64,000 nucleotides of DNA, taken from positions 310,001 to 374,000 of the forward strand of contig NZ_AP021901.1 of the NCBI RefSeq assembly GCF_018325905.1, read 5' to 3'. Origin of the DNA: Pseudomonas sp. St316 (GTDB lineage: Bacteria; Pseudomonadota; Gammaproteobacteria; Pseudomonadales; Pseudomonadaceae). This document shows positions 17,210 to 35,572 of the stretch, one piece after another. The position numbers and the translations under genes were made by a program. Below the pieces are notes generated by a model. That model did no database searches, was not told the DNA's origin, and was given only the letters and a program-made list of their open reading frames with translations. The number at the start of each line of letters is the position of its first letter. Position 1 is the stretch's first letter.

Positions 17210-17989
17210 ATGCGACGTTTGAGTAGTTGGGTTGTGGGATTGGCCTTTGTAACGTGCGGCGTCCAGGCGCAAACGCCTGCGGCAGATGATCCATTGCTCG
17301 GCAGCAACGTCGCGGCCAGTGCATCGGGCGGCAACGAGGCGCGTGGGGTGCTTCGGGCGCGGGACCAGGCGGTGCTGGCCAGCGAGTTGGCCGGGCGCAT
17401 CGTCGAGTTGCCCTTCAGCGAGGGCGAGTCGTTCAAGAAGGGCGATACCCTGGCGCGTTTCGATTGCTCGGCGTACCAGGCCCAGCTCAACGCGGCCCAG
17501 GCGGCCAGCCGTGGCGCCAGTGAAGAGTTGGCCCATAACCGGCAACTGGCGGAGTTGAAGTCGGTCGGGCGTTTCGAAGTGTCGCGGGCCGAGGCGCGGG
17601 TCAGCGAGGCGCAGGCGCAGTCCCAGGTCTACCAGGTGCAGGTCAAGCGTTGCAGTGTGGTCGCACCGTTCGACGGGCAGGTGGTGGCGCGCAAGGTCCA
17701 GCGTTATGAAAGTGTGGCGGCCGGCGCACCGTTGCTGGATGTGGTCGACAACCGCTCCCTGGAAATCCATCTGCTGGTGCCTTCGCGCTGGATGGACCGG
17801 CTCAAGCCCGGCCAGCCGTTCACCTTTATCCCCGATGAAACCGGCAAGCCGTTGCAGGCGACGGTCAAGCGCCTGGGCGCGCGCATCGATGAGGGCAGCC
17901 AGACCCTGCTACTGGTGGCGAGTGTGCCGGATGCCAGCGGCTTGCTGTCCGGCATGAGTGGCACGGCGCGTTTTGCGGAGCCCAAGTGA
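17210..17989 (+). CDS. Periplasmic adaptor (RND/HlyD-type membrane-fusion protein), first gene of the export locus
   Basis: A 259-aa secreted protein with a signal peptide (cleavage after GVQA, about residue 23). The two halves of a lipoyl domain (VLASELAGRIVELPFSEGESF and CSVVAPFDGQVVARKVQRYE) flank a short alpha-hairpin, and a beta-barrel follows (VDNRSLEIHLLVPSRW). It is shorter than RND adaptors (about 370 aa) and lacks a lipobox, so it is a minimal adaptor. The ribosome site AGGGAG lies 9 bases before ATG. Its TGA overlaps the GTG start of the next gene, showing co-translation with the GAF-HlyD protein. Confidence 0.85.
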   Translation: MRRLSSWVVGLAFVTCGVQAQTPAADDPLLGSNVAASASGGNEARGVLRARDQAVLASELAGRIVELPFSEGESFKKGDTLARFDCSAYQAQLNAAQAASRGASEELAHNRQLAELKSVGRFEVSRAEARVSEAQAQSQVYQVQVKRCSVVAPFDGQVVARKVQRYESVAAGAPLLDVVDNRSLEIHLLVPSRWMDRLKPGQPFTFIPDETGKPLQATVKRLGARIDEGSQTLLLVASVPDASGLLSGMSGTARFAEPK

Positions 17990-19305
17990 ACGCGCCGATA
18001 TCGGGCAGCGCCGAGCAGGTGTTTGCCCGTTTTCTCGACCTTGAGCGCCAGACGCGGGCTGCCCGCACCCCGGCGCAATTGAGCTACAGCCTGGTCAATG
18101 ACGGCCAGGCGCTGTTCGGGTTTCGCCATGCCGCGCTCTTGATTGCCGGCAAGGTGCAGGCGGTGACTGGCGTCAGCGCCGTGGAGCCTAATGCGCCGTT
18201 CGTGGCGTTCGTCGAGCAGGCGGTGGCCCAGTTGTTCAAACAAGGGCTGCTCAATCAGGCCCGGGTGATCGCCGCTGACGGGGTCAGTGAATCCATCCGG
18301 GCGGACTGGCGCAGTTTGTCGGCGGGGCAGGTGTTCTGGCTGCCGTTGGTCGATCATCAAGGCCAGGTGTTCGGGGGGTTGTGGCTGGCCCGTGATTTGC
18401 CGTGGACCCCGTCTGAACAAGTGCTGTTGTCGCAGTTGGGCGATACCTACAGCCATGCCTGGCTGGCCCTGCAACCGCGCAAGCCGTGGCGCCTGCGCTG
18501 GACGCGCAAACGGCAGGTGGCGCTGGCCGCCATGCTGTTGCTGGGCTTGCTGATTCCGGTCCGCCAATCGGTACTGGCCCCGGCCGAAGTGGTGCCGCTG
18601 GGCGGGCAAGTGGTGGCGGCACCGTTGGACGGCGTCATTGCCGAGTTCATGGTCAAGCCCAACCAGGCCGTGAAGAATGGCGACCTGTTGCTGCGTTTCG
18701 AAAGCACCAGCCTCAAGGCTCAGGCCGATGTGGCCGAGCGCGCGTTGGGCGTGGCCGAAGCGGAGCTCAAGGCCAACTCCCAGCGCTCGTTCGCCGATGC
18801 GGAGTCGAGCTCCAAGGTTGACCTGCTGGCCGCCCGCGTCGAACAGAAACGTGCCGAGCGTAACTATGCGATGGAGCTGCTCAAGCGCAGCGAGGTGCGT
18901 GCCGAGCGGGACGGTATTGCGGTGTTTGCCGATGCCGAGCGCTGGCTCGGCAAGCCGGTGCAGACCGGCGAGCGGCTGATGGAAATTGCCGATCCGAACC
19001 AGGCTGAGTTGCGTATCGAGCTGGCGGTGGGCGACGCGATCGCCCTGGAGCCCGGCGCACAAGTGGCGCTGTTTCTTGACAGCGACCCATTGCAGCGGCA
19101 TCTGGCCTGGCTCGAACGTTCGGCCTATGAAGCGCAGCCCACGGCGGCCGGGCAATTGGCCTATCGGCTGGACGCGCGCTTCGATGCCACGGCGCCGCGC
19201 ATCGGCCTGCGAGGCACGGCAAAGGTCTTTGGCGAGCGCGCCCCATTGGCACTGTACCTGTTGCGCCGGCCACTGGCCGGGCTGCGCCAGAGCGTAGGCC
19301 TGTAG
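17986..19305 (+). CDS. GAF-like domain / HlyD-family membrane-fusion protein
   Basis: A 439-aa protein. Residues about 5-165 are predicted cytoplasmic and GAF-like (LSYSLVNDGQALFGFRHAALLI ... VFGGLWLARDLPWTPSEQVLLSQLG). One transmembrane helix follows (QVALAAMLLLGLLIPV, about 180-196), then a periplasmic lipoyl/hairpin/beta-barrel HlyD region (VVAAPLDGVIAEFMVKPNQAVKNGDLLLRF ... VRAERDGIAVFADAERWLGKPV). A GAF sensor attached to an adaptor is unusual and suggests cytoplasmic gating of export. The start is GTG at 17986, overlapping the previous gene by four bases; the M50 gene starts one base after its stop. Confidence 0.8.
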   Translation: MNAPISGSAEQVFARFLDLERQTRAARTPAQLSYSLVNDGQALFGFRHAALLIAGKVQAVTGVSAVEPNAPFVAFVEQAVAQLFKQGLLNQARVIAADGVSESIRADWRSLSAGQVFWLPLVDHQGQVFGGLWLARDLPWTPSEQVLLSQLGDTYSHAWLALQPRKPWRLRWTRKRQVALAAMLLLGLLIPVRQSVLAPAEVVPLGGQVVAAPLDGVIAEFMVKPNQAVKNGDLLLRFESTSLKAQADVAERALGVAEAELKANSQRSFADAESSSKVDLLAARVEQKRAERNYAMELLKRSEVRAERDGIAVFADAERWLGKPVQTGERLMEIADPNQAELRIELAVGDAIALEPGAQVALFLDSDPLQRHLAWLERSAYEAQPTAAGQLAYRLDARFDATAPRIGLRGTAKVFGERAPLALYLLRRPLAGLRQSVGL

Positions 19306-19306
19306 C

Positions 19307-21403
19307 ATGAACCTGCCGAGCCTGCGGCCCGATTTGCAGTTGTCCCCGGCGGCTCCAGACCCTGACGGTTCGCCGCAATGGACCCTGGCCGACCCGGTGC
19401 GCGGGCGCTATTTCAAGCTGGGTGCGGCGGCGATGCGCATGCTGCGTCATTGGTCCCTGGGCGACCCGGAACGGGTGCTGCAAGCGGCGAACCGTGAGCC
19501 GGGCCTGCCCCTCAATGGTGAGTCGCTGGAGCAGTTGCTGGGTTTTCTGCGTGGCCACGATCTGATCAGCGCGATGGACCCGCAACAGCGCGCCAGCTAC
19601 TCATTCAAGACGGCGGCCCGGCGCCAGAGCCTGTGGCAAATACTGCTGCACCAATACCTGTTTTTCCGCATTCCGCTGTGGCGCCCGGACGCCTTCCTCA
19701 ACCGCGCCTGGCCCTGGCTGGCACGGTTAGGTCCCAAGCTCTTGCGCTATGGGCTGCCGTTGACCCTGGGGCTCGGTATTTTCCTGGTGTCACGGGATTG
19801 GCAGCGGTTCCTGGCGACGTTTCCGCACCTGTTCAGCCTGGGCGGTGCGCTGGCGTTCGGGGTGGCGTTGTTTTTCGCCAAGCTGTGCCATGAGTTCGGC
19901 CATGCCTTCATGGCCAAGCGCGCCGGTTGTCGGGTGCAGAGCATGGGTGTGGCGTTCATGGTGCTGTTGCCGATGTTCTATACCGATGTCAGTGATGCTT
20001 GGCGGATCAACGACCGACGGGCGCGGTTGCTGATCGGCGCCGGTGGCGTATTGGCAGAATTGCTGCTGGCCTGCGTCGCCCTGCTGGCCTGGTCGCTGTT
20101 ACCCGACGGGCCGGCGCGCACTGCCGCGTTCATGCTGGCCAGCGCCACCTGGATCACCACGCTGATCATCAACCTGAATCCTTTCATGCGCTTTGACGGG
20201 TATTTCCTGCTCAGTGATTTCTGGGCGGTGGATAACCTTCAAGGCCGTGCGTTCGCCCTGTGTCGCTGGCGCCTGCGCGAAGCCTTGTTCGGCTATGGCT
20301 TGGCGGCCCCGGAGCCCTGGTCGCCGAAGATGCGCCGTCGCTTGCTCGTCTGGGGATATGGCTCGTGGTTGTGGCGCGCGGCGTTGTTTTTCGGTATTGC
20401 CCTGGCGGTCTATCACCTGTTCTTCAAGGTGCTGGGCATTTTCCTGATGATGGTGGAATTGGTCTGGTTCATCTTTATGCCCATCGTGAATGAGTGGCGG
20501 CAATGGTGGAGTCGCCGTGAACAGGCCCACGGTCCGCGGGTGCTGCTGAGCGGCCTGGTCTTGCTGGCGTTGGTGCTGGCGTTGCTGCTGCCCTGGCGCA
20601 GCGCCGTGGAAGTGCCGGCGATGCTGGAGGCCGGTCGTGCCAGTGCGTTGTATGCGCCGGTGGCGGCACGGGTCAAGCAAGTGAATGTGCACGACGGCCA
20701 GACCGTGGCCCAAGGCGACGTCCTGGTTGAACTGGAGTCGCCGGACATGGCGTCGCGCCTGGTCATCGTGCGCCGGGAAATCGAGATCCAGCAGTTGCAG
20801 ATGCGTCGTCAGGCCGGGCGCAGCGAGACCGCCGCCGATGCTGGCATCATTGAACAGCAGTTGGCCGAGGCGGTGGCGGAATACCGCGGCCTGGTCGCCC
20901 AGCGGGAACGCCTGTTGCTGCGCGCGCCCCATGCCGGCCAGGTGCGCGACCTGCTGCCGCAACTGTCGGTGGGGCGTTGGCTATCGCCAACGCAGCCGCT
21001 GGCGCGAGTGGTGCAGACCGATTCTCGCCTGCGTGGGTACCTGACCGAGGCCGAGCTGTGGCGGGTCAGTGCCGGTGCCACGGGCCGGTTCATTGCCGAC
21101 GATCCGATGCACCCTTCGATTGCCGTGCAACTGAATGAGATCGACACCAACGGCGTGGCCTGGGTCGAGCAACAGGCGCTGACTTCCGATCACCACGGGC
21201 CGATCGCGGTGCGCCGTGATTCGCAGCAGCGGGCCGAACCGGTGCAGGCGCAGTACGGCGTGCGCTTGAGTGCGATCGAGGACGGGGCTGCGCCGCTGCA
21301 ACCGCTGCGTGGCGTGGTGGTGCTGCAGGGGCGGGGGGAGTCGGTACTGGGAGCGGCTTGGCGCCGGTTGGCGGCGCTGGGTGTGAGGGAAAGCGGATTT
21401 TAA
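19307..21403 (+). CDS. M50 (site-2) zinc metalloprotease membrane protein with PqqD/RRE-like N-terminus and HlyD-like C-terminus
   Basis: A 698-aa multidomain membrane protein. Residues about 5-95 resemble a PqqD/RiPP-recognition domain (LRPDLQLSP ... RGRYFKLGAAAMRMLRHW ... LEQLLGFLRGHDLI). Residues about 130-430 hold six to eight transmembrane helices with the zinc motif HEFGH at 195-199 and the second M50 motif N291-P-F-M-R-F-D297-G. After a last helix (about 415-432) a periplasmic lipoyl/hairpin segment follows (ALYAPVAARVKQVNVHDGQTVAQGD). It belongs to the peptide zinc metalloprotease (YydH-like) group. It probably cleaves or handles a membrane-inserted or exported peptide together with the adaptor proteins encoded just before it. 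Confidence 0.85.
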   Translation: MNLPSLRPDLQLSPAAPDPDGSPQWTLADPVRGRYFKLGAAAMRMLRHWSLGDPERVLQAANREPGLPLNGESLEQLLGFLRGHDLISAMDPQQRASYSFKTAARRQSLWQILLHQYLFFRIPLWRPDAFLNRAWPWLARLGPKLLRYGLPLTLGLGIFLVSRDWQRFLATFPHLFSLGGALAFGVALFFAKLCHEFGHAFMAKRAGCRVQSMGVAFMVLLPMFYTDVSDAWRINDRRARLLIGAGGVLAELLLACVALLAWSLLPDGPARTAAFMLASATWITTLIINLNPFMRFDGYFLLSDFWAVDNLQGRAFALCRWRLREALFGYGLAAPEPWSPKMRRRLLVWGYGSWLWRAALFFGIALAVYHLFFKVLGIFLMMVELVWFIFMPIVNEWRQWWSRREQAHGPRVLLSGLVLLALVLALLLPWRSAVEVPAMLEAGRASALYAPVAARVKQVNVHDGQTVAQGDVLVELESPDMASRLVIVRREIEIQQLQMRRQAGRSETAADAGIIEQQLAEAVAEYRGLVAQRERLLLRAPHAGQVRDLLPQLSVGRWLSPTQPLARVVQTDSRLRGYLTEAELWRVSAGATGRFIADDPMHPSIAVQLNEIDTNGVAWVEQQALTSDHHGPIAVRRDSQQRAEPVQAQYGVRLSAIEDGAAPLQPLRGVVVLQGRGESVLGAAWRRLAALGVRESGF

Positions 21404-21412
21404 GGAGCGAAC

Positions 21413-21904
21413 ATGGATTCAGTGGCGGCAGAAGGCTTGGTGGTGCGGCCATCGCGGGTCAGCGATGGTCCGTTCCTGCAGAGCCTTTACCAGGCGGCGC
21501 GTCCGGATCTGCAATGGATCGACGGTGAGCACGAGCAGGTGCAACAGGTAATCGCCCAGCAGTTCCAGGTGCAAGAGCAGGGGCTGGGGGAGAACTTTCC
21601 CAATGCCATGCATTACGTGGTGGAAAAGCTCGGCACCGCCATCGGCGCCCTGAGCACGGATTTCGGGCCGAATGAAATCCGCGTGCTGTACCTGGCCTTC
21701 ATCCCCCAGGCCCGCGGGCAGGGTTATGGCCGGACGGTGTTGCAAGGGGTGCAGAAAGCCGCACAGCAGATTCGCTGCCCGGTGGCGACCGTGGTCTGGG
21801 CCAGCAACCCCCACGCACGGCGGCACTACCTGGCGCTGGGGTTCGAAGTGCAAGAACGCAACCCGGCGGCTGAGCGGTTGGTGTGGTACCCGAAAGGCGA
21901 TTGA
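21413..21904 (+). CDS. GNAT-family N-acetyltransferase
   Basis: A 163-aa cytoplasmic acetyltransferase. The acetyl-CoA loop is visible as LAFIPQARGQGYGRTVLQGV, followed by ATVVWASNPHARRHYLALGFEVQERN, the usual GNAT end. ATG at 21413 follows AAGGAGCG, nine bases after the M50 stop, so it is part of the same operon. It may modify a cargo protein of the locus; the acceptor is not evident. Confidence 0.85.
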   Translation: MDSVAAEGLVVRPSRVSDGPFLQSLYQAARPDLQWIDGEHEQVQQVIAQQFQVQEQGLGENFPNAMHYVVEKLGTAIGALSTDFGPNEIRVLYLAFIPQARGQGYGRTVLQGVQKAAQQIRCPVATVVWASNPHARRHYLALGFEVQERNPAAERLVWYPKGD

Positions 21905-21920
21905 GGGTCTTGTGAGCTTG

Positions 21921-22006
21921 TTGGAGCGGGCATGCTCACGAACGCACTGGGTCAAAAGGCATTGATTCGACTGACCCAACGCTTTCGCGAGCAGGCTCGT
22001 TCCCAA
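21921..22006. repeat. Degenerate REP doublet
   Basis: Diverged inverted arms (TTGGAGCGGGCATGCTC and GAGCAGGCTCGTTCCCA) with inner arms CTGGGTCA/TGACCCA, between the converging GNAT and tail-collar genes. Confidence 0.7.
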
Positions 22007-22036
22007 TGGGGCGGGCCACGGCCCTGCGGCGGGTGA

Positions 22037-22624
22037 TCAGTTGCGGGACGGGAAGAGACCGTTCAAAGCGATGCTGAAATTGATCGCCAGGAACGGGTTC
22101 ATGATCGCCATCGGCAGGCCATTGCCCGTCGGGGACACCGTTCCACTAACCGTCGTTGTCACGCCTTTGAGCGGCACTGGCGAGGCGCCGACCTGGTCGG
22201 AATAGATATTCGCCGCACCTGGCCCGGTGCCCGAGGTGCCGATGAACGAGTTGGTGGCCGTGGGTGTATTCGCCGGATTGCTGGCCGGGTTCGCCAGTTG
22301 CAGGGTGGTCGAGGCAGTGATACCGGCGAGGGCGTGAGTGTGGTTGGGCAGGTTGTTCAGGGTTGCGGTGACGTTTTCGGTGCCCGCAACCTCGCCGATG
22401 ACGCGCGGGGTCAGGCCCAGGCCGTTGCCCTGGCCCATCGGCAGGCGGCCTTGCAGATCGGGGAGCGTGAAGTTGGTCGTGCCATTGCCTCCGTAGTAGG
22501 TGCCGAGCAGTGAGAACAACGCCTGGTATTGCGAGACGGCGAGTGTCTGTCCATTGCACAGCGCCCAGCCATTGGGTGCGAAGTTAAAGGCAAAAGACTG
22601 GATAGTGCCCATGAATACTTCCAT
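22037..22624 (-). CDS. Phage tail-collar domain protein (MdpB-like), copy 1
   Basis: A 195-aa protein starting MEVFMGTIQSFAFNFAPNGWALCNGQ, the tail-collar fold start found in microcystin-dependent MdpB-type proteins, with LPDLQGRLPMGQGNG and the LNNLPNHTHAL motif. The C-terminal half (TATNSFIGTSGTGPGAANIY ... MNPFLAINFSIAL) is the trimeric fibre-like part. No signal peptide is seen. GAGGAAT precedes the ATG. It is 195 aa like copy 2 (23250-23837), and the middle segments are almost identical in DNA. No phage genes surround it, so it is not a prophage remnant. Confidence 0.85.
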   Translation of the reverse strand: MEVFMGTIQSFAFNFAPNGWALCNGQTLAVSQYQALFSLLGTYYGGNGTTNFTLPDLQGRLPMGQGNGLGLTPRVIGEVAGTENVTATLNNLPNHTHALAGITASTTLQLANPASNPANTPTATNSFIGTSGTGPGAANIYSDQVGASPVPLKGVTTTVSGTVSPTGNGLPMAIMNPFLAINFSIALNGLFPSRN

Positions 22625-22785
22625 AAATTCCTCATCCCTCAGGTTATTGGTCTGGTGTCGCCAGAGAAGAAGATTGCGTTCGGCCCGATTCCCTATTCCC
22701 TGGCCTGATCACGCACGGCTGAGCGGTTGCGGCATTCTGCCGGGCGAGATCTTTGGGGCGGTGGTCTCCGATTGATGTGTCTATG

Positions 22786-22869
22786 GGGTGAGCCTGCTCG
22801 CGAACGCAGTGGGGTCAGTTGTCGTCATGTTGGATGTGCTACCGCCTTCGCGAGCAGGCTCGCACAGGG
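22786..22869. repeat. Degenerate REP doublet
   Basis: Inverted arms TGAGCCTGCTCGCGAACG and CGCGAGCAGGCTCGCA, between tail-collar copy 1 and the small protein gene on the minus strand. It could separate transcription within this group. Confidence 0.7.
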
Positions 22870-22892
22870 GCTGGCGGTAGCAGCTCCACTCG

Positions 22893-23204
22893 CTAATTGA
22901 ACGCGATGTAGAAATAGCCAATCGTGGGGTCCCGTCCCATCGGCGGGATCCGTGACACGAACACGCCTTCGAGCCTGCCCAGTTCGGGCACGTCCAGCGC
23001 ACACAGGCCATCGACGAACTCGGTGGCCTGCAAGCTGTTGAGCTCCACGCTGAACGGCATGCGCTCGGTGTTCGGCAGCTTGGCCCTGGGCGTCTCCTCG
23101 AGGGTCTCGACCCGTATGGGCAGGCAACTGCCGTCGGGCAGGGTCAGGCTGCTGGTCTGGCCCAGCAACGATTGGAAATGGTGGCTATGAACCGCTTGCA
23201 GCAT
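22893..23204 (-). CDS. Small DUF6916-like protein
   Basis: A 103-aa protein. It begins MLQAVHSHHFQSLLGQTSSL, contains PFSVELNSLQATEFVDGLCALDVPELG and ends GRDPTIGYFYIAFN. I recall this pattern, with a GRDP.GYF.I.FN end, as DUF6916, found beside tail-collar genes; function unknown. The mix of beta-rich segments suggests a compact folded protein. GGAG lies seven bases before the ATG. It is 45 bp after tail-collar copy 2 and probably in the same transcript. Confidence 0.7.
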   Translation of the reverse strand: MLQAVHSHHFQSLLGQTSSLTLPDGSCLPIRVETLEETPRAKLPNTERMPFSVELNSLQATEFVDGLCALDVPELGRLEGVFVSRIPPMGRDPTIGYFYIAFN

Positions 23205-23249
23205 GTTGATACTCCAACGGACCCGAGGGCCGGGCCCTGCGGTGGGTCA

Positions 23250-23837
23250 TCAGTTACGGGACGGGAAGTAACCTTGAAGGGCGATGCTGAAGTTGATCGC
23301 CAGGAACGGGTTCATGATTGCCATCGGCGTGCTGCCGCCTGTGGGCGAGACCGTGCCGCTGACCGTCGTTGTCACGCCTTTGAGTGGCACCGGCGAGGCG
23401 CCGACCTGATCGGAATAAATATTCGCCGCACCTGGTCCGGTGCCCGAGGTGCCGATGAACGAGTTGGTGGCCGTGGGTGTATTCGCCGGATTGCTGGCCG
23501 GGTTCGCCAGTTGCAGGGTGGTCGAGGCGGTGATGCCAGTGAGGGTGTGGGTGTGGTTGGGCAGGTTATTCAGTGTCGCGCTGACGTTTTCGGTGCCGGA
23601 AACCTCGCCGATGACGCGTGGGCTCAGGCCCGGGCCGTTGCCTTGCCCTATGGGCATGCGCCCTTGCAGGTTGGGCAACATGAAGTTGGTTTGGCCGTTG
23701 CCCCCGTAGGTCACGCCGATCAGGGCGAAAAGGGTCTGGTACTGGGCAAGGCTGAGCGTTTGCCCCTGGCATAGAGCCCAATCCCTGGGCGCGAAATTGA
23801 AGGCAAATGCTTGAATGGTTCCGATGAATACTTCCAT
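23250..23837 (-). CDS. Phage tail-collar domain protein (MdpB-like), copy 2
   Basis: A 195-aa paralogue of the gene at 22037-22624. It starts MEVFIGTIQAFAFNFAPRDW at 23837, where GAGGAATCT precedes the ATG; a longer in-frame start at 23939 would add an unrelated extension. The collar motifs LPNLQGRMPIGQGNG and LNNLPNHTHTL are present, and it ends ALQGYFPSRN (copy 1: ALNGLFPSRN). The first gene of the minus-strand group, it diverges from the sulfotransferase. The nearly unchanged middle segment against diverged ends points to gene conversion between the copies. Confidence 0.85.
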   Translation of the reverse strand: MEVFIGTIQAFAFNFAPRDWALCQGQTLSLAQYQTLFALIGVTYGGNGQTNFMLPNLQGRMPIGQGNGPGLSPRVIGEVSGTENVSATLNNLPNHTHTLTGITASTTLQLANPASNPANTPTATNSFIGTSGTGPGAANIYSDQVGASPVPLKGVTTTVSGTVSPTGGSTPMAIMNPFLAINFSIALQGYFPSRN

Positions 23838-24067
23838 AGATTCCTCATCCCTCAGGTGATTGCTCTGCTGTTGGGCGGGCAAGGTATGGGGGGAAAGGTC
23901 GATCAGCCCGACGCCTTCATTCCCTGGCCTGTCACGCACGGCTGAGCGTAGACCGGGATATCTGATTTTGCCGGGAGAGACGTCAGGAAAATTCTTCTGG
24001 ATCGGCTAAATCGATTCAGGTGTGGCGAGAGCCTGTACCGTCCATCTTTTTTACGGGATGAGGTCTA

Positions 24068-24079
24068 TTTGATATCAAA
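24068..24079. promoter_or_regulatory. Perfect 12-bp palindrome upstream of the sulfotransferase
   Basis: TTTGATATCAAA lies 58 bp before the sulfotransferase ATG in the 299-bp divergent gap between it and tail-collar copy 2. It could be an operator half-way between the two promoters, but a 12-bp palindrome can occur by chance. Confidence 0.3.
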
Positions 24080-24136: not shown

Positions 24137-24985
24137 ATGGTGAAAGGATTGTCACAGTTTCACTTTATTTCCGGCTTGCCGCGCTCAGGCTCGACCCTGC
24201 TTTCTGCGATTCTGTTGCAGAACCCGCGCTTTCACGCCGGTATGACCAGCCCCGTCGGTTCGCTGTTCAGCAGTGTGCTGCAGCAGTGCAGCGCCGGCAG
24301 CGAGTTTGGCTCGGTGATCGACACCGACCTGCGCCGCCGCCTGTTGCGTGGGCTGTTCGACTCCTACTACGCCGACAAGGCCGACAAACCCGTCATCTTC
24401 GATACCAACCGCCAATGGTGCGCGCGCCTGCCGGCCCTGCAAGACCTGTTTCCCCAAGCCAAGACCATCGCCTGTGTACGCAATGTCGCCTGGGTGCTCG
24501 ACAGTCTGGAGCGGCTGTATCGCGCCAACCCCTTCGAGAACACCAAGCTGTTCATCGACGATGACGAGCGCAATACCGTCTACAGCCGTTGCGAAACCCT
24601 GGCCCAGCGCAACCGCTTGGTGGGGTTTGCCTGGACGGCGCTCAAGGAAGCCTATTACGGCGAGCACGCCGAGTCGCTGCTGATCGTCGATTACGACCTG
24701 CTGAGCCAGGCGCCCGAGCGGGTGATGCGGCTGGTCTACGAGTTCATCGGCGAGCCCTGGTTCGAACACGACTTCAATCACTTGACCTACGACGCACCGG
24801 CCTTCGACCAGGCCTTGGGCGTTGCCGGCCTGCACAAGGTCAAGCCCAAGGTCGCGCCGCAAACCCGGCGGACCCTGCTGCCGCCGGATCTGTTCGAAAA
24901 ATATGCCGAGTTGTCGTTCTGGCGCGATGGGGCTGCCAGCGCCGCCAATGTCATTCGTATGAAAACCGACGCCGCGATCAGTTGA
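24137..24985 (+). CDS. Sulfotransferase (first of two in the locus)
   Basis: A 282-aa sulfotransferase-fold protein. The 5'-phosphosulfate loop is FISGLPRSGSTLLSAIL near residues 9-25, and the 3'-phosphate site is IACVRNVAWVLDSLERL near 113-130. The ATG at 24137 has AAAGGA upstream. It is transcribed toward the giant repeat protein, but a terminator overlaps its stop codon. It would transfer sulfate from PAPS to a protein or glycan; given its position, the giant surface protein or the collar proteins are candidate acceptors (inference). Confidence 0.85.
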   Translation: MVKGLSQFHFISGLPRSGSTLLSAILLQNPRFHAGMTSPVGSLFSSVLQQCSAGSEFGSVIDTDLRRRLLRGLFDSYYADKADKPVIFDTNRQWCARLPALQDLFPQAKTIACVRNVAWVLDSLERLYRANPFENTKLFIDDDERNTVYSRCETLAQRNRLVGFAWTALKEAYYGEHAESLLIVDYDLLSQAPERVMRLVYEFIGEPWFEHDFNHLTYDAPAFDQALGVAGLHKVKPKVAPQTRRTLLPPDLFEKYAELSFWRDGAASAANVIRMKTDAAIS

Positions 24986-28000: not shown

Positions 28001-31000
28001 CGCTGCCGGTAATGCCGGCACCGGCACCACCAGCTCCAACAACTACGCCGTCGACACCCAGCGTCCGACCGCCACCGTCGTCGTGGCCGATACGTCGTTG
28101 AGCGTCGGCGAAACGTCGCTGGTGACCATCACCTTCAACGAGGCGGTGACCGGCTTCACCACAGCCGACCTGAGCGTTGCCAACGGTACCGTCACCGGGC
28201 TGAGCAGCAGCGACGGCGGTATTACCTGGACCGGGACCCTGACCCCGACCGCCAGCATCAGTGACGCCAGCAATGTCATTACCCTGGACAATACCGGCGT
28301 CAGCGATGCCGCCGGCAACGCCGGCAGCGGCACCACCACGTCCAACAACTATGCCATCGACAACGTTCGGCCGACCGCGACGATCGTGGTCGCCGACAGC
28401 ACCCTCAGCATCGGCGAGACGTCCGTGGTGACGATCACCTTCAGTGAAGCGGTGACCGGCTTCACCCTGGCCGACCTGACGACGGCGAACGGTGTCTTGA
28501 GCAACTTGAGCACCAGCGACAACATCACCTACACCGCGACCTTCTCCCCGAGCGCGGGCATCAGCGACACCAGCAACCTGATCACCCTGGATAACACCGG
28601 GGTCGTGGACGGAGCAGGCAACGCCGGCAGCGGCACCACCGACTCGAACAACTACGTCGTCGACACACTGCGCCCGACCGCCACCATCGTGGTGGCGGAC
28701 ACCGCGCTGAGCGTTGGCGAAACGTCGCTGGTGACCATCACCTTCTCCGAAGCGGTCAGTGGTTTCAATAACTCGGACTTGTCCGTGGCCAATGGCACGC
28801 TCAGCGCGGTCAGCAGCAGCGACGGCGGCTTGACCTGGACCGCCACCCTGACCCCGAACCTGGGGGTCAGCGACGTCAGTAACCTGATTACCCTGAACAA
28901 CACCGGCGTCAGCGATGCAGCAGGCAACACCGGCACTGGCACCACCAACTCCAACAACTACGCCATCGACACCAACGTGCCGACGGCGACCATTGTGGTG
29001 GCCGATACGTCCCTGAGTATCGGGGAAACGTCCCTGGTGACCATCACCTTCAACGAAGCGGTGAGCGGTTTCGACAACAGTGACCTGCTCGTCGGCAATG
29101 GCACACTGAGCAACGTCAGCAGCAGCGACGGTGGCGTGACCTGGACCGCCACGTTCACTCCGAGCGCCAGCATCAGCGACACCACCAATGTGATCACCCT
29201 GGACAACACCGGTGTGACCAACGGTTCAGGCAATGCCGGGGTCGGTACCACCGATTCCAACAACTACGCCATCGACAACGTGCGCCCGAGCGCGACCATC
29301 GTCGTCGCCGACACGGCCATCGCCGCGGGCGAGACGTCGCTGGTGACCATCACCTTCAGCGAAGCCGTGACCGGTTTCACCACGGCCGACCTGAGCGTGG
29401 CCAACGGTACGCTCACCGGGCTGAGCAGCAGCGATGGCGGCATCACCTGGACGGCCACGTTCACGCCGACCGTCGGTATCAACGACACCAGCAACCTGAT
29501 CACGCTGGATAACACGGGCGTGGCCGACCTGGCGGGTAATACGGGCAGCGGCACCACCGACTCGAACAACTACGCCATCGACACCTTGCGCCCAACGGCG
29601 ACGATCGTCATGGCCGACACCAACCTCAGCGTCGGTGAAACGTCACTGGTCACCATCACCTTCAGCGAGGCGGTGAGCGGCTTCGACAATTCGGACCTGA
29701 GCGTGGCCAACGGCACCCTGAGCGCCGTCAGCAGCAGCGACGGTGGTATCACCTGGACAGCGGTCTTCACCCCGACCATCGGCACACGGGATGCGACCAA
29801 CCTCATCGTCCTGAACAACAGTGGCGTGAGCGATGTGGCGGGCAATGCCGGTACGGGCACGACCAACTCCAACAACTACGCCATCGACACCCAGGTTCCG
29901 ACCGCCACCATCGTGGTGGCCGATACGTCGCTGAGCATCGGTGAAACGTCGCTGGTGACCATCACCTTCAGCGAAGCCGTGACCGGTTTCACCGCTGCCG
30001 ACCTGAGCGTGGCCAACGGTACGCTGAGCAACGTTTCGTCCAGCGACGGTGGCGTGACCTGGACCGCTACGTTCACCCCGAGCGCCAGCGTTTCCGACAC
30101 CAGCAACCTGATCACCCTGGACAACACCGGTGTGACCAACGGTTCAGGCAATGCCGGGGTCGGCACCACCGATTCCAACAACTATGCCATCGACACCGTG
30201 CGTCCGACCGCGACCATCATCGTCGCCGACACGGCCATCGCCGCGGGCGAGACGTCGCTGGTGACCATCACCTTCAGCGAAGCCGTGACCGGTTTCACCG
30301 CTGCCGACCTGAGCGTGGCCAACGGTTCGCTCACCGGGCTGAGCAGCAGCGATGGCGGCATTACCTGGACGGCCACGTTCACGCCGACCGTCGGCGTCAA
30401 CGACACCAGCAACCTGATCACGCTGGATAACACGGGTGTGGCCGACCTGGCGGGTAATACGGGCAGCGGCACCACCGATTCCAACAACTACGCCCTCGAC
30501 ACCCAGTTGCCAACCGCCACCATCGTGCTCAGTGATTCAACGCTGAGGCCGGGTGAAACCGCCCAGGTCACCATCACCTTCAGCGAAGCAGTGACCGGTT
30601 TCACCAACGCTGACCTGACGGTGGCCAACGGCACCCTGAGCGCTGTCAGCAGCAGCGACGGTGGCCTGACCTGGACGGCCACGTTCACCCCGACCCTGGG
30701 TGTGAGCGACGCCACCAACCTGATCAGCCTGGACAATACCGGGGTGAGCGACGTGGCAGGCAATGTCGGCGCGGGGACCACCGACTCGGCTAACTACGCG
30801 GTCGAGACCCGGGTGCCCAGCGCCACGATCGTGGTGGCCGACAACGCCCTCAACGTCGGTGAAACCTCATTGGTGACCATCACCTTCTCGGAAGCGGTCA
30901 GCGGCTTCGACAACAGCGACCTGAGCGTGAGCAACGGCACCCTGAGCAACGTTTCGTCCAGCGATGGCGGCGTGACCTGGACTGCGACCTTCACCCCGGC

Positions 31001-32279
31001 GAGCAACATCACCGACACCAGCAACCTCATCAGCCTGGACACCAGCGGCGTGGTCAATGCCTCGGGCAACAGCGGCGTCGGGGTGGTGAACTCCAACAAC
31101 TACGCGGTCGACACGGTGCGCCCGGGCGCCACCATCACCCTGGGCGATACCAGCCTGGGCATCGGTCAGACCACCACCGTGACCATCAGCTTCACCGAAG
31201 CGGTGTCGGGCTTCGACCTGTCGGATCTGAGCGTGGCCAACGGCGTGCTGTCGAACCTCGCCAGCAATGACGGCGGCCTGACCTGGACGGCGACCCTGAC
31301 GCCGACCGCGGGCGTCAATGATGCCACCAACCTGATCCTGCTCGACAGCAGCAATGTCCAGGACCTGGCCGGCAACGCGGGCGCTGGCATCGCGATCTCG
31401 GCGAACTACGCCCTGGATGCCAGCCGGCCGACAGCGACCATCGTGGTCGCCGACCCGAACCTGAGCGTGGGCGAGACGACCCAGGTGACCATCACCTTCA
31501 GCGAGGCGGTGAGCGGTTTCGACCTGTCGGATCTCAGCGTCACCAACGGTGAACTGACCAACCTGGCCAGCAGTGACGGCGGCAAGACCTGGACGGCGAC
31601 GTTCACGCCGACGGGCAACCTCACCGACCCGAGCAATTTCATCGCCCTGGACACCAGCAACGTCAGCGACCTGTCGGGCAACGCCGGCTCTGGGGTGTCG
31701 GTGTCCAACAATTACCAGATCGACACCGTGGTGCCCAACGATGTGAAGCCGCCACCGGAGTTCCTGATCTCGGACCCGGTTACCGTGGTGCCACCGTCCG
31801 ACGTGCCGTTGCAGCCGATCATCTTCACGCCGCCCACCGGCAACCTGGGCTCGCCGCTGGGCTTCCCGCCGCTGTTCGAGCAACGGGATGTGGGCGGTGG
31901 CCTGGATCCGATAGGCGATATTTTCATCAACCGGGGTGAACTGGCGCCGAGCTACATCGCCCAGGTCTTTAGCAGCGATGCTGCCGGCGACGGCTCGGGC
32001 CATGGGTTCCTGGGCTTTGGCGGTGGCGATGGCGGGGTGTTCGGCAGCAGCACGCTGTCGACGCTGTTCAACCAGGACGCCGCTTCCGAGGGCGAATCGA
32101 TGGACGCCTTCGGCAATTCATCGATGCAGGGGGGCGATGTGTCCCAGGGCTTGCGCGGGATGTTTGGCGCACCGACCTTGGGCCAGCAACTGCAACACCT
32201 CAAGGACACTGAACAACGTCAGGTAGACAGCCTGGCGATGGCTTTGCAACAGGTCGGCATCAGCCAGGTACAGGCCTGA
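25038..32279 (+). CDS. Giant LEPR/DUF4347 surface protein with Gly-rich region and 16 Ig-like repeats
   Basis: A 2413-aa protein. It starts at 25038 (AGGTGA six bases upstream) with a basic N-terminus and the LEPR motif MSLEPRMLFDGA. Residues about 85-255 form a DUF4347 domain with IIAHGNAG (His138) and IYGCYTAEGD (Cys181). A region of about 80 residues with beta-helix-like features follows, then a Gly-rich stretch (about 340-570) with runs of GGGG. Sixteen repeats of about 102 residues cover roughly 594-2225 (Big_12-like: GETSLVTITFSEAV, DLSVANGTL, DGGITWTATFTP, SNNYAIDT). The Pro/Gly-rich tail of about 185 residues ends GISQVQA. I see no RTX repeats and no classic Sec signal. A secreted adhesin or matrix protein is likely. 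The TolC gene follows directly. Confidence 0.85.
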   Translation: MWWSKGKSRVIEGAQALASPMIMSLEPRMLFDGAVAATVAEAAQPEAHPTADAAKTPTADQPADTHAPQGQVDATEAAVPGKSVVFVDSRVKDAASLLDGVAPGTQVVQLDATKDGLQQIADYLDTHQGVSSVQIIAHGNAGDLWLGNAYLSADNVQARSEVLAQIGQDMNAGGDILIYGCYTAEGDRGLALVDSLAQLTGRDVAASNDRTGLGGDWDLEIATGNIESANVLSANAMSEYQWGLATWTATNNANTGVGSLRAALASAQNGDIVTFNSGMTVALTQVLVVNKNVTIDGDLNNDNVADVTLDGQFRTQILNVTSGTTATLDGLVITRGMVAGNGGDGGTDALVAKGGGIYNAGTLTLKNVTVTANAASGGGGGGGVTPQYAGGGGGGGGAISGFGNGGNGGNTLNATGSIGSSGQGGAGGGFSNMGGRGGSSTAGAGGAAYPGYSTGSAGGTASSGGRSIGGGGGGDGYNEIGGAGGGAVGGIYNDTGATLRIIGNSVISNNIGAGGGGGGGGAGGGYNHTGGAGGVGVGAIWNKGSILITAANFAALAGNVGGSGIGGASAGTAGTSPSSVTNVYGDGGTINTNYVPDLTPPTATVVVANTNLNSGGTSLVTITFSEAVTGLTASDLTVQNGTVGTLTSGDGGITWTGTLTAASNIADTTNVITLDNTGVADLAGNAGVGTTSSNNYVVNDTVAPTATIVVADTALKSGETSAVTITFSEAVTGFTTADLTVANGTITGLSSADGGITWTATLTPGADITDTTNLVVLDKTGVADLSGNAGVGSTNSNNYAIDTLLPTATIVVADTSLSVGETSLVTITFNEAVTGFTAADLTVANGSVTGLSSADGGITWTATLTPTASVSDTTNVITLNSGGIADLSGNVNAGTTDSNNYAIDTLRPTATIVVADTALAAGETSLVTITFSEAVSGFTLADLTVANGSLSGLSSSDGGITWTATLTPTASIADATNLVVLANTGVVDAAGNAGTGTTSSNNYAVDTQRPTATVVVADTSLSVGETSLVTITFNEAVTGFTTADLSVANGTVTGLSSSDGGITWTGTLTPTASISDASNVITLDNTGVSDAAGNAGSGTTTSNNYAIDNVRPTATIVVADSTLSIGETSVVTITFSEAVTGFTLADLTTANGVLSNLSTSDNITYTATFSPSAGISDTSNLITLDNTGVVDGAGNAGSGTTDSNNYVVDTLRPTATIVVADTALSVGETSLVTITFSEAVSGFNNSDLSVANGTLSAVSSSDGGLTWTATLTPNLGVSDVSNLITLNNTGVSDAAGNTGTGTTNSNNYAIDTNVPTATIVVADTSLSIGETSLVTITFNEAVSGFDNSDLLVGNGTLSNVSSSDGGVTWTATFTPSASISDTTNVITLDNTGVTNGSGNAGVGTTDSNNYAIDNVRPSATIVVADTAIAAGETSLVTITFSEAVTGFTTADLSVANGTLTGLSSSDGGITWTATFTPTVGINDTSNLITLDNTGVADLAGNTGSGTTDSNNYAIDTLRPTATIVMADTNLSVGETSLVTITFSEAVSGFDNSDLSVANGTLSAVSSSDGGITWTAVFTPTIGTRDATNLIVLNNSGVSDVAGNAGTGTTNSNNYAIDTQVPTATIVVADTSLSIGETSLVTITFSEAVTGFTAADLSVANGTLSNVSSSDGGVTWTATFTPSASVSDTSNLITLDNTGVTNGSGNAGVGTTDSNNYAIDTVRPTATIIVADTAIAAGETSLVTITFSEAVTGFTAADLSVANGSLTGLSSSDGGITWTATFTPTVGVNDTSNLITLDNTGVADLAGNTGSGTTDSNNYALDTQLPTATIVLSDSTLRPGETAQVTITFSEAVTGFTNADLTVANGTLSAVSSSDGGLTWTATFTPTLGVSDATNLISLDNTGVSDVAGNVGAGTTDSANYAVETRVPSATIVVADNALNVGETSLVTITFSEAVSGFDNSDLSVSNGTLSNVSSSDGGVTWTATFTPASNITDTSNLISLDTSGVVNASGNSGVGVVNSNNYAVDTVRPGATITLGDTSLGIGQTTTVTISFTEAVSGFDLSDLSVANGVLSNLASNDGGLTWTATLTPTAGVNDATNLILLDSSNVQDLAGNAGAGIAISANYALDASRPTATIVVADPNLSVGETTQVTITFSEAVSGFDLSDLSVTNGELTNLASSDGGKTWTATFTPTGNLTDPSNFIALDTSNVSDLSGNAGSGVSVSNNYQIDTVVPNDVKPPPEFLISDPVTVVPPSDVPLQPIIFTPPTGNLGSPLGFPPLFEQRDVGGGLDPIGDIFINRGELAPSYIAQVFSSDAAGDGSGHGFLGFGGGDGGVFGSSTLSTLFNQDAASEGESMDAFGNSSMQGGDVSQGLRGMFGAPTLGQQLQHLKDTEQRQVDSLAMALQQVGISQVQA
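26816..31711 (+). repeat. Sixteen tandem ~306-bp repeats encoding Ig-like domains
   Basis: The unit is 306 bp (102 codons) with one shorter 303-bp copy (28349-28651). Units 8-9 (28958-29569) and 11-12 (29876-30487) are nearly identical at DNA level and offset by exactly 918 bp (three units), a sign of recent segmental duplication. The last two units are the most diverged. Confidence 0.9.
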
Positions 32280-32318
32280 TAAAACTAAAAAATGGGGCAG
32301 CCAGGGGCAATCCAGGGA

Positions 32319-33833
32319 ATGAATAGAAGTCAGAAGTTATTCGCAGTGAGTGCGCTGGCGTTGGTGGTCAGCGGATGTGCCGTCACCAGTGAGCCGATCG
32401 ATCGAAGCGTCAGCGAACAGCGCGCCCGGACCGACCTGCAGAATATGTACAAGGGCCAGGAGCCCCTCAGTGGCCCGCTGACCCTGCACCAGGCCATGGC
32501 CCGCGCGGTGAAGTACAACCTCGAAGGTCGCTTGAAGATCATGGAGGAGGCCCTGGCAAAACGGCAACTGGACCTCGCCAGTTTCGACATGCTGCCGCGC
32601 ATGGCGCTGGATGCCGGTTATGTCGGCCGCAACAATGTCAGCGCCTCCAGTAGCCAGAGTGTCGAAACCGGCACCCAGTCCCTGGAACCGTCGACCTCCC
32701 AGGACCGCGACCGTGAGGTGGCGGACCTGACCATGGTCTGGAACGTGCTCGACTTCGGCGTGAGCTACATCAGCGCCAAGCAGGCCGGCGACCAGCGGCT
32801 GATCGTGCAGGAGCGTCGTCGCAAGGTGATCAACACCATCGTCCAGGACGTGCGTTCAGCCTACTGGCGCGCCATGGCCGCCGAGCGCCTGCTCAAGCAG
32901 ATCGACAGCTTGATGGCCCGGGTCGAGTCGGCACGCGGCAACAGCCAGAGCATGAGCGAGCAACGCATCGGTGACCCGGTTCAGGCCCTGGGTTACCAGC
33001 GCTCGCTGATCCAGGCCACCCGCCAGCTCGAAGAGCAGCGCCGGGCGCTGTCGCTGGCCAAGACCGAACTGGCGACCCTGATCAACCTGCCCCTGGGCAC
33101 CGAGTTGACCCTGGCGACCCAGGATGAGTACGAGATTCCGGAGCTCAAGGTCGACCTGTCCCGCCTCGAACAGGAAGCCCTGGCCAGCCGTCCGGAACTG
33201 CGCGAGCAGGACTATCAGACGCGCATTACCGCCGCCGAAACCCGCAAGGCCATGCTGCGCCTGCTGCCAGGCCTGGAGTTCTCCGCCGGCGGGCACTACG
33301 ACAGCAACTCGTTCCTGGTGGAACAGGGCTGGGCCGACTATGGCGTGAAAGTCACCTGGAACCTGTTCAACGTGATTTCCGCCCCGGCGGCCATCGACGT
33401 GGCCAAGGCCGGTGAAGAAGTGGCGTCGGCGCGGCGCCAGGCGATGTCGATTGCCGTGTTGGCGCAGTTGTACGTGGCCAATGCCAACTATCGCGAAGCG
33501 CTGCGCCAGTTCAAGACCAGCCAGCAACTGTCGGACATCGACGGGCAGATTGTCGGTCAATTGCGCAGTCGTCACCAGGCTGCCGGCATTGGCGAGCTCG
33601 ATCTGATCCAGGGTGAACTCAATACCCTGCAGGCCGATCTGCGCCGGGACCTGGCCTACGCCGACCTGCGCAACGCCTACGGGCAGATCTTTGCCAGTGC
33701 CGGTCTCGACCCACTGCCAAACGAAGTGCAATCGACCGAAGTCCAGTCGATTGCCACGGCGCTGGCTAACCGCGAAGCGGCCTGGGCCCAGGGCAATATC
33801 ACGGTGCCGACCACGGCCACGGTGCCCCAATAA
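32319..33833 (+). CDS. TolC-family outer-membrane lipoprotein
   Basis: A 504-aa outer-membrane efflux protein. The start at 32319 gives a lipoprotein signal with lipobox VVSGC (Cys20), as in OprM-type channels. The two OEP repeats are visible (LTLHQAMARAVKYNLEGRLKIM ... LDLIQGELNTLQADLRRDLAYADLRNAYGQIFASAG). AGGGG lies about ten bases upstream, and the gene follows the giant protein by 39 bp. It gives the locus its own outer-membrane duct, expected to pair with the HlyD-like proteins at 17210-21403. No ABC or RND pump gene lies in the locus. Confidence 0.88.
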   Translation: MNRSQKLFAVSALALVVSGCAVTSEPIDRSVSEQRARTDLQNMYKGQEPLSGPLTLHQAMARAVKYNLEGRLKIMEEALAKRQLDLASFDMLPRMALDAGYVGRNNVSASSSQSVETGTQSLEPSTSQDRDREVADLTMVWNVLDFGVSYISAKQAGDQRLIVQERRRKVINTIVQDVRSAYWRAMAAERLLKQIDSLMARVESARGNSQSMSEQRIGDPVQALGYQRSLIQATRQLEEQRRALSLAKTELATLINLPLGTELTLATQDEYEIPELKVDLSRLEQEALASRPELREQDYQTRITAAETRKAMLRLLPGLEFSAGGHYDSNSFLVEQGWADYGVKVTWNLFNVISAPAAIDVAKAGEEVASARRQAMSIAVLAQLYVANANYREALRQFKTSQQLSDIDGQIVGQLRSRHQAAGIGELDLIQGELNTLQADLRRDLAYADLRNAYGQIFASAGLDPLPNEVQSTEVQSIATALANREAAWAQGNITVPTTATVPQ

Positions 33834-33845
33834 CCGGGCGCTGGC

Positions 33846-34631
33846 ATGACGCGCCCGGCGTTTTCCCGGCTGCCGGTGGCGGTGAACCTGCCGTTGCTGT
33901 TGCAGGCACTGGCCGCCATTGAAGACGAGCGCTGGCAGGGGCATTTCAACAGTGCCTATTACAGCGGCGACTGGAGCGGTGTGGCGCTGATTTCAGCAGC
34001 CGATGCCGTCACCGAGCTGTCGCCCGGGCGCGGCCAGCCCCTGCATCGCGCGCCTTGGTCAAGGGATGGCCGCTGGCATGAAGCGTTGCGCGACTGGCCC
34101 CTGGAGATCGTCTCGGCCCGGCTGCTGCGGCTCGGGCCCGGCGGGTGCATCCACGAACATCGCGACTATGACCTGGACGGGCCGGACGCCGACCTGCGCC
34201 TGCACGTGCCGCTGCTCAGCTCGCCTGGCGTGGACTTCTTCCTGGATGGGCAAATCATTGCGATGACGGCAGGCGAGTGCTGGTTCCTCGACCTGGCGCG
34301 GCCTCATCGGGTTGTGAATCGAAGTGCTCACTCGCGGGTTCACCTGGTACTCGATTGTCGCCCCGGGCCTTGGCTGGCACAGCAGATTGCCAATGGGCTG
34401 CCCACCACACCCGCCGCGGGCGTCGGGCCAAGCGACTTTGTCCGTTTTCAGCAGCGTGTGGAAACGGATCCTCATCTCGCCCGAACCTTGCAGAACTTGC
34501 CTGAGCTGGAAGCGTTCATTGACTCTGCCCTGGCGCTGGGGGCCGAACAAGGGCTTCATTTCACCCGGGAAGAATTGCGGGCGGCGATGCGCACAGGTCG
34601 CCAGCAGTGGAGAGACCAGTGGAAGACCTGA
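33846..34631 (+). CDS. Aspartyl/asparaginyl beta-hydroxylase with C-terminal Nif11-like domain
   Basis: A 261-aa two-part protein. Residues about 30-180 are an Asp/Asn beta-hydroxylase with iron ligands in IHEHRDYDLD and in RPHRVVNRSAHSRVHLVLD (His and the 2-oxoglutarate Arg). Residues about 197-255 match the Nif11-like pattern FVRFQQRVETDPHLA ... LALGAEQGLHFTREELRAAM (helix, 'DP.L', a G...F.T.EEL end). Nif11-like domains are best known as leaders of RiPP precursors and recognition modules. It begins 12 bp after the TolC stop and overlaps the second sulfotransferase, so it is operonic. It would hydroxylate Asp or Asn in a protein of the locus. Confidence 0.82.
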   Translation: MTRPAFSRLPVAVNLPLLLQALAAIEDERWQGHFNSAYYSGDWSGVALISAADAVTELSPGRGQPLHRAPWSRDGRWHEALRDWPLEIVSARLLRLGPGGCIHEHRDYDLDGPDADLRLHVPLLSSPGVDFFLDGQIIAMTAGECWFLDLARPHRVVNRSAHSRVHLVLDCRPGPWLAQQIANGLPTTPAAGVGPSDFVRFQQRVETDPHLARTLQNLPELEAFIDSALALGAEQGLHFTREELRAAMRTGRQQWRDQWKT

Positions 34632-35572
34632 ACCTGCACGGCTGGTTGCCGATCCGCGTATGGCAAGAGGCCGGGCTGTGGCGGGTCGATTGGTGCTGGT
34701 TTGGCGACGCGCGACTGTCGCAGCCGTTCTTCGGCGATGCCGTGGAAGACGCCCTGCGCTTGCCCTTCAACCAGGCATTGCGCCGCCAGACACCCTTGGA
34801 CGTACTCGGTCAGTGGCAACGACAAAGCCCGGGGCTGGCGCCCAGTGCGTTCATTTTCCATGCCTCCCGTTGCGGTTCGACATTGATCAGCCAGATGCTT
34901 GCCCAATTGGACGATCACATCGTCATATCGGAACCACCGCCCCTGGATACGTTGCTGCGCAGTGATTTGCCGTCGCCCGAGCGGGGCGTGGCGCTCAAGG
35001 GCTTGATGTCGGCCTATGGGCAGCGCCGCCGAGGCGTGGAGCAACGCCTGGTGGTCAAGCTCGACGCCTGGAACATCGGTGAGCTGGCGCTGTTGCGAGA
35101 ATGTTTTCCCGACACGCCCTGGCTGTTCCTGTACCGCGACCCCTTGGAAATCGCCGTCTCCCATCTGCGCCGTCCTGGTATGCACATGGTGCCGGGGATG
35201 ATCGGGACGAGTGTCTTGGACGATGGGTTGCCGTTCAGTAGCCGGGAAGATTTCATCTCGCGTCGGGTAGGGCGGTTGTTGGCGACGGGTTTGGAATACT
35301 GTCGGGTATTGGGTGCAATGGCGGTCAACTACACCGAACTGCCTGGGGCAATGACGGGCAGGCTGGCGGCGTTTTTCGGCCTCGATGATGAGCAATGCAG
35401 GCGGGTGTTCGCGACGGTGGGGCAGCATGCCAAGCAGCCGGCGCAGGCGTTTGTTGGTGATAGCGAGGACAAGCACCGGGAGGCTTCGGCGCTGTTGCGT
35501 GAGCAGGTCCTGCGCTGGGCGCAGGGGCCCTATGAAGCACTCGAAACATTGCGCTGTGGCGAGGGGATTTAG
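34619..35572 (+). CDS. Sulfotransferase (second of two in the locus)
   Basis: A 317-aa sulfotransferase-like protein. The PAPS loop is FIFHASRCGSTLISQML and the 3'-phosphate site FLYRDPLEIAVSHLRRP. An N-terminal region of about 80 residues (LNLHGWLPIRVWQEAGLWRVDWCWFGD) precedes the catalytic fold and is absent from the first sulfotransferase, so the two are distant relatives, not a recent duplication. The GTG at 34619 has GGAGAG six bases upstream; GTG at 34607 is the alternative. It overlaps the hydroxylase gene by 13 bases. The last gene of the locus; a REP doublet follows. Confidence 0.8.
   Translation: MEDLNLHGWLPIRVWQEAGLWRVDWCWFGDARLSQPFFGDAVEDALRLPFNQALRRQTPLDVLGQWQRQSPGLAPSAFIFHASRCGSTLISQMLAQLDDHIVISEPPPLDTLLRSDLPSPERGVALKGLMSAYGQRRRGVEQRLVVKLDAWNIGELALLRECFPDTPWLFLYRDPLEIAVSHLRRPGMHMVPGMIGTSVLDDGLPFSSREDFISRRVGRLLATGLEYCRVLGAMAVNYTELPGAMTGRLAAFFGLDDEQCRRVFATVGQHAKQPAQAFVGDSEDKHREASALLREQVLRWAQGPYEALETLRCGEGI

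Follow-up and report, generated by a model that had tools for sequence, protein, structure and literature searches.

A leader-bearing giant protein, an M50-HlyD fusion and a TolC channel form a conserved bacterial gene unit, a candidate route for export and maturation of giant surface proteins

Assemblies of TolC and HlyD family proteins are described as built round an ATP-binding cassette (ABC), resistance-nodulation-division (RND) or major facilitator superfamily (MFS) pump, as far as the available part of the source goes (PMC8277102). We analyzed a locus of Pseudomonas sp. St316 in which HlyD-class adaptors and a TolC-family channel are encoded together with a giant repeat protein and an M50 protease fused to an HlyD domain (M50-HlyD). 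The locus occupies positions 17210-35572 of the window, a 64,000-nucleotide stretch (contig NZ_AP021901.1, 310,001 to 374,000) of a 6.78-Mb single-contig genome, and its nearest named relatives are Pseudomonas of the fluorescens/brassicacearum kind. We propose, with a probability of roughly 55%, that its core genes constitute a dedicated, leader-guided export-and-maturation route for giant surface proteins.

The unit resembles type I secretion systems (HlyB/HlyD/TolC; LapB/LapC/LapE) in its HlyD-class adaptors, its TolC-family channel and its giant repeat cargo. It differs in that it contains no ABC protein, the nearest being LapB in a LapE-B-C set of its own, in that the cargo carries an N-terminal leader and, by motif, no C-terminal RTX repeats, and in having a protease fusion as its inner-membrane part. 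The tripartite efflux pumps (MexAB-OprM, EmrAB-TolC, MacAB-TolC) share the adaptor folds, which match those of MacA, EmrA and MexA, but our unit has no RND, MFS or MacB pump and its cargo is a giant protein. Pathways for ribosomally synthesized and post-translationally modified peptides (RiPPs) that pair a RiPP recognition element (RRE) with an M50 protease, such as those for daptides and epipeptides, share both of these folds, and the daptide family NF041824 is the best match of our fusion. Here, however, the protease forms one protein with an HlyD adaptor and has TolC as a partner, it scores below the daptide cut-off, the precursor is a giant protein, and the short precursor with a conserved modifying enzyme is not found. 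Accessory Sec (SecA2/SecY2) is a Gram-positive system. A sister form of our unit is similar to it in that giant repeat proteins with unusual N-termini are accompanied by a SecA paralogue of their own, but is set in a double membrane with HlyD/TolC, RRE and M50 parts, and the window's locus has no SecA. Two further candidates were rejected: the Pectobacterium multi-repeat adhesin belongs to a LapG-type type I system in the available parts of PMC6963963 and PMC4018554, and export of the Ig-like protein RSP of R27 needs the type IV ATPase TrhC in the available part of PMC6764697. No published description of the unit was found in the literature searched, which leaves out bioRxiv and most subscription journals.

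The core of the window's locus lies on the plus strand. It opens with a soluble periplasmic adaptor (MFP1; 17210-17989), which matches TIGR01730 RND_mfp (136 bits, cut-off 94.9) and HlyD_3 (71 bits) and has an N-terminal signal sequence as judged by eye. An HlyD adaptor with a GAF-like N-terminal domain follows (17986-19305; HlyD_3 57 bits; one transmembrane segment by hydropathy, residues 178-196), and next to it lies the 698-aa M50-HlyD fusion (19307-21403; Peptidase_M50 33.1 bits, HlyD_3 37.8). Beyond a set of accessory genes lie the giant substrate candidate (2413 aa; 25038-32279) and a TolC-family outer membrane factor (32292-33833; OEP 140 bits in two stretches), which is a predicted lipoprotein by its lipobox, again judged by eye.

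We traced the fusion of the genus in 57 relatives and read the neighborhoods of 31 matches; a scan of genome contigs gave at least 557 confirmed relatives, of which the best 80 were kept. The core of giant, TolC, adaptor, HlyD protein and M50-HlyD is conserved in Proteobacteria, in Nitrospirota and on plasmids; its hosts include Pseudomonas, Pectobacterium, Serratia, Azospirillum, Rhizobium, Nitrospira, Duganella, Azonexus and SAR11. It occurs in two gene orders: adaptor, HlyD, M50-HlyD, accessory genes, giant and TolC, as in the window, or giant, TolC, adaptor, HlyD and M50-HlyD. Where more than 4.8 kb of sequence preceded the M50 gene (110 loci), the HlyD protein is encoded in 105, the adaptor in 102 and TolC in 76, the last count being affected by window-type loci in which TolC frequently lies beyond the fetched stretch. 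Gene order retained across classes and phyla is more than a chance neighborhood, and the system is widespread in bacteria. In a SAR11 genome, a leader match (23.3 bits) falls in a 3267-aa frame on contig 5, the contig that also holds the SAR11 locus, and we take this frame as the giant upstream of M50-HlyD. Separately, a Nitrospirota genome can carry two M50-HlyD systems, one of each form (L226, L228).

M50-HlyD is also present in 54 plasmid records (E<=1e-20), 18 of them from Escherichia, and compact core units are found on plasmids of Kosakonia, Escherichia coli, Azospirillum and Magnetospirillum. The giant of the E. coli plasmid starts with the leader LESRQLFDGA, while a 492-aa protein adjoining the Magnetospirillum unit shows no leader. 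A DNA-level search of E. coli genomes gave no match, as expected at about 36% protein identity; the plasmids were found by protein. The E. coli plasmids that carry core units (L253:830-1201 and L250) have IncFIA/IncFIB replicons.

DUF4347, a domain of the window's giant, is inherited together with M50-HlyD. Among 35 other genomes of the genus, M50-HlyD is present in 23, DUF4347 in 22, both in 22 and neither in 12 (p 1.6e-8), so that DUF4347 accompanies 22/23 genomes with the fusion and 0/12 without it; the sequence-only reading, which had grouped these genes, is borne out in other genomes on this point. In a gammaproteobacterial class sample of 369 genomes, M50-HlyD is found in 58 (threshold about 169 bits, below which matches cover the adaptor part only; G179, truncated at a contig end, was included at 89 bits), DUF4347 in 47 and both in 37 (p 8e-27). 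The two lie at most 45 kb apart on one contig in 20 of these 37 genomes and on different contigs in 17; DUF4347 without M50-HlyD was seen in 10 genomes of the class sample and in G041 of the order sample. Our strongest result comes from the leader family LEPR-XLL, which was used as an independent family: at E<=1e-3 it occurs in 28/369 class-sample genomes, and 26/28 have M50-HlyD. Over the family's cut-off the numbers are 36 of 49 genomes, and 35 of 39 when frames of at least 499 aa are considered. Among 148 Nitrospirota genomes, 21 have M50-HlyD, 17 the leader over cut-off and 16 both, with the leader at most 0.5 kb from M50-HlyD in 11/16 and at most 10 kb in 15/16. With p <1e-15 in each of two independent samples, the co-occurrence of the leader family with M50-HlyD is firm.

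The protease core of the fusion (residues 176-308; 19833-20230) carries the RseP-like motifs HExxH and NxxPxxxxD, invariant in 16/16 members. An AlphaFold2 (AF2) model of the whole protein has a predicted local distance difference test score (pLDDT) of 83.9 and a predicted template modeling score (pTM) of 0.57; a whole-protein Foldseek search recovered the adaptor part only, and VIA-align added the RseP part. Its NF041824 (daptide_HExxH) match reaches 148.6 bits, under the curated cut-off of 300. Ahead of the protease lies a further domain (about residues 1-91; 19307-19579), for which we used profile and fold tests because single-protein and genome searches with PqqD were weak: Pfam PqqD matched 1/16 members (E 0.0054), and the genome scan placed no M50-HlyD protein above the cut-off among the matches listed, one match of 20.4 bits (cut-off 23.4) falling within the M50-HlyD frame of G038. 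In the profile comparison the domain matches PqqD at E 2e-5, ten controls giving 0.054 or worse, and its AF2 model matches TbiB1, lasso B1 and PqqD structures in the PDB, and thus has the PqqD-like fold of an RRE. Profile and model firmly indicate an RRE at the start of M50-HlyD, a fold with which peptide-maturation enzymes bind leaders; this finding is new here, as are the shared leader of the giants and the SecA-like neighbor of the sister form described below. The RRE is probably cytoplasmic, since it is predicted ahead of the first membrane segment. That M50-HlyD is the inner-membrane component, as the sequence-only reading had suggested, is supported, as it is the sole such component conserved together with the adaptors. 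From the co-occurrence of leader and fusion, which is good if indirect support, the RRE likely binds the leader of the giant; whether the predicted M50 active site also cleaves it is an even call.

Pfam finds DUF4347 and 16 matched stretches of Big_12 in the giant, which is a substrate candidate by these domains and by its linkage to the core. Its leader (25038-25166, plus strand), recognized by a regular expression and a leader hidden Markov model (HMM), contains the motif LEPRMLFDGA at 25110-25139. In giants of the window's form the motif reads LE[PQSK]R-x-x-x-[FL]-D-[GAS]-[AS] (LExRxxFDGA), and sister-form giants have LEPRxLLSAD. The motif is related to NCBIfam NF012209 (LEPR-XLL), an orphan family without a stated function in the NCBIfam library. 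The sister-form leader of G109 scores 32.9 bits with this family, above the cut-off of 17, whereas the window's FDGA variant lies around or under it, at 14.0 bits as a protein and 16.8 in the genome (17.6 with neighbors). A survey of 120 regions found the motif in 72, a giant truncated at its 5' end in 24, no candidate in 10 and no motif in 14; a separate count compares 77 motif open reading frames (ORFs), from 75 regions, with 1059 further ORFs of at least 300 aa, near-duplicate loci (G021/L108, G007/L120) being kept. Giants next to TolC range from about 600 to 10,000 aa, with Ig-like repeats in annotated ones. No strong N-terminal hydrophobic segment was seen in the giants, and an ordinary signal peptide is therefore unlikely. 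The window's giant has fewer than three GGxGxD motifs and hence no C-terminal RTX repeats by motif, a test that covers RTX-type signals only.

How such a protein could be energized across the inner membrane is suggested by the sister form. Family profile searches of the proteins encoded within 17210-35572 found no ABC, RND or MFS gene, and no gene of the window's core unit can use ATP. The absence of a pump noted by the sequence-only reading thus holds for the locus, while a LapE-LapB-LapC-like exporter (OEP, ABC, HlyD) lies upstream at 1464-6433, its LapB scoring 971 bits to type_I_sec_LssB (cut-off 693). An LssB-class ABC over cut-off is present in only 3/11 system genomes, and the Lap-type exporter is therefore not a general partner. 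A partial LapA-domain protein on the minus strand accompanies the Lap genes (1-6433). The gene that follows M50-HlyD in the sister form encodes a SecA-like ATPase, found in 25/143 loci overall, a figure that differs from the frequency in nature, as 40 extra loci were picked among weaker M50-HlyD matches; these supplied 23/25 SecA-bearing loci, and the best 80 none. SecA_DEAD, P-loop and preprotein domains were found in the two proteins scanned, and the ATPase aligns with Bacillus subtilis SecA at E 3e-84 over residues 51-544, with TGEGKT and DEAD kept. The description of the system as motorless consequently has to be revised. The SecA-bearing loci fall within a group of 36 tips that leaves out the window. 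Such ATPases were seen beside M50-HlyD in Gammaproteobacteria and Nitrospirota (L188:17769-19877, L182:18330-19994, L213-L248). Because the sister form has a SecA-like ATPase next to M50-HlyD, Sec would be a likely motor, and the parsimonious reading is that Sec would power both forms, through a SecA of its own in the sister form; we rate SecA driving the inner-membrane step as plausible, at slightly less than even odds.

In the route that we propose, the giant would carry the short LExRxxFDGA leader, which the cytoplasmic RRE of M50-HlyD would bind, so recruiting the giant to the inner membrane. Passage across it would then be the work of Sec, with the dedicated SecA-like ATPase in the sister form and housekeeping SecA in the window's form, and the M50 active site would remove the leader. 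The HlyD domain of the fusion, the second HlyD protein and the soluble adaptor would connect to the TolC lipoprotein, through which the giant could reach the surface. We infer this order of events, and consider exit through TolC somewhat better than even.

Several observations weigh against this proposal. As to the leader, 22/58 M50-HlyD genomes have none over cut-off and 13/49 leader genomes lack M50-HlyD; among 86 loci in which the start of a large ORF can be seen, 14 lack the motif, NF012209 scores the window's leader under its cut-off at the protein level and does not match the leaders of E. coli and L154, and the regular expression and HMM were derived from the loci to which they were applied. 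A Vibrio giant with LEPR-XLL has C-terminal RTX domains according to the available part of PMC10868602, and the leader may therefore also occur on type I substrates. As to the machinery, TolC was not found in the SAR11 loci (L161, L167; genomes of about 1.2-1.3 Mb), the SecA group has a weak node support of 0.16, 10/36 loci inside it lack SecA, some having another HlyD protein there, and the window's own locus has none. The LapEBC exporter ends 12.9 kb before the M50 gene and its ABC protein could serve, and in G379 full-length ABC exporters score under the LssB cut-off, HlyB-class ABCs having had no separate search.

These points bear on the rival explanations. The locus could serve as receiver to a type I ABC exporter encoded elsewhere, with LapB or a different ABC supplying the energy and M50-HlyD only processing or regulating, as might be suspected from LapEBC in the same window, from LapB-like genes upstream in seven related loci (G010a, G035, G005, G019, G011, G029, G021) and from adaptor and TolC families of the type I/efflux class. 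Yet 8/11 system genomes have no LssB-class ABC over cut-off, the plasmid units have no ABC gene among their annotated neighbors, every unit encodes a TolC of its own and, apart from the fused adaptor, two more, and the C-terminus of the giant is free of RTX repeats by motif, so that we regard this as unlikely. Slightly less unlikely is that ordinary Sec moves the giant and that the cluster is a surface-anchoring or release device, in which M50 later cuts a retention segment in the manner of LapG or RseP under GAF-like sensing. Site-2 protease relatives such as RseP are regulatory, the M50 part matches the RseP fold, and the GAF-like domain weakly suggests sensing. The giants, however, show no clear signal peptide, they are inherited with M50-HlyD through the leader rather than through one C-terminal anchor, and the probably cytoplasmic RRE points to leader recognition before export.

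An RRE with an M50 protease is also a RiPP arrangement, with the daptide protease as best NCBIfam match, and Nif11, GNAT and hydroxylase domains, which are RiPP-like, lie nearby; the product could thus be a short core peptide cut with its leader from the giant, the remainder being a carrier. We find this improbable, as the conserved payload is the giant itself beside TolC and the modifying enzymes are not conserved. Mere chance neighbors that do not work together would fit the accessory genes, which differ between species in window-type loci, but this is contradicted by the same core in two gene orders across several classes, Nitrospirota and plasmids, and by the co-occurrence statistics, and we give it next to no credence. 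The leader-guided route remains our preferred reading. That it amounts to a distinct double-membrane export system, in which an RRE reads the leader, inner-membrane passage is powered by SecA instead of an ABC or RND pump, M50 trims and HlyD/TolC deliver, is a more tentative suggestion.

The accessory genes between M50-HlyD and the giant encode a GNAT acetyltransferase (21413-21904, plus; Acetyltransf_1 38 bits), two tail-collar proteins (22037-22624 and 23250-23837, both minus; Collar 98 and 92 bits) flanking a DUF6916 protein (22893-23204, minus; 37.8 bits), and sulfotransferase 1 (24137-24985, plus; Sulfotransfer_3 56 bits). An Asp/Asn hydroxylase with a C-terminal Nif11 domain (33846-34631, plus; Asp_Arg_Hydrox 49 bits, Nif11 29.5 bits) and a borderline sulfotransferase 2 (34607-35572, plus; 26.4 bits, cut-off 27) follow TolC. 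In 18 window-type loci of the genus we counted collar genes in 15, GNAT in 15, sulfotransferase 1 in 12, DUF6916 in 11, and sulfotransferase 2 and the hydroxylase in 9 each; in the plasmid units of Kosakonia, E. coli, Azospirillum and Magnetospirillum, none of the modifying enzymes is annotated. All four enzymes, the two sulfotransferases, GNAT and the hydroxylase, are local additions of particular lineages and lie outside the conserved system. Collar genes recur in Pectobacterium relatives, and three stand in a row after M50-HlyD on the Kosakonia plasmid (L249:16131-18238), with signal-peptide-like starts that the window's collar proteins lack; in the window's subgroup, collar proteins may act as a partner.

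The interpretation offered by the sequence-only reading is partly supported overall. Its three adaptors, M50 protease, TolC, 2413-aa repeat protein and two tail-collar genes are all found where it had placed them; DUF6916 was absent from its list and the Nif11 domain of the hydroxylase had escaped it, and of its four modifying enzymes, which it had made part of the system, three are confirmed as domains and sulfotransferase 2 is borderline. Its GAF-HlyD label holds for HlyD, while for GAF a Pfam search found no match in the window's own protein and PF01590 matched 5/19 homologues (best E 4.8e-4). The RRE and the shared leader, which it had missed, give the mechanism. A PADLOC run on eight proteins returned no matches. 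Elsewhere in the window, a match to the C4 antisense RNA family, a phage immunity RNA, lies amid sulfur/taurine-type genes (11226-11323, minus; 57.8 bits), and an 811-aa protein (13583-16018), alpha/beta-hydrolase-like at its start and with weakly matching domains of the pyruvate phosphate dikinase type, is encoded beside an epimerase-like gene.

If the proposal is correct, it would provide the first function for LEPR-XLL and DUF4347 giants, and would explain the way out of the cell for giant repeat proteins that have no signal peptide, a large class. A protease would here stand in the place of the pump, alongside an RRE taken over from the maturation of small peptides; the sister form adds a SecA. 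Since the unit is compact and can be carried on plasmids, the question is testable.

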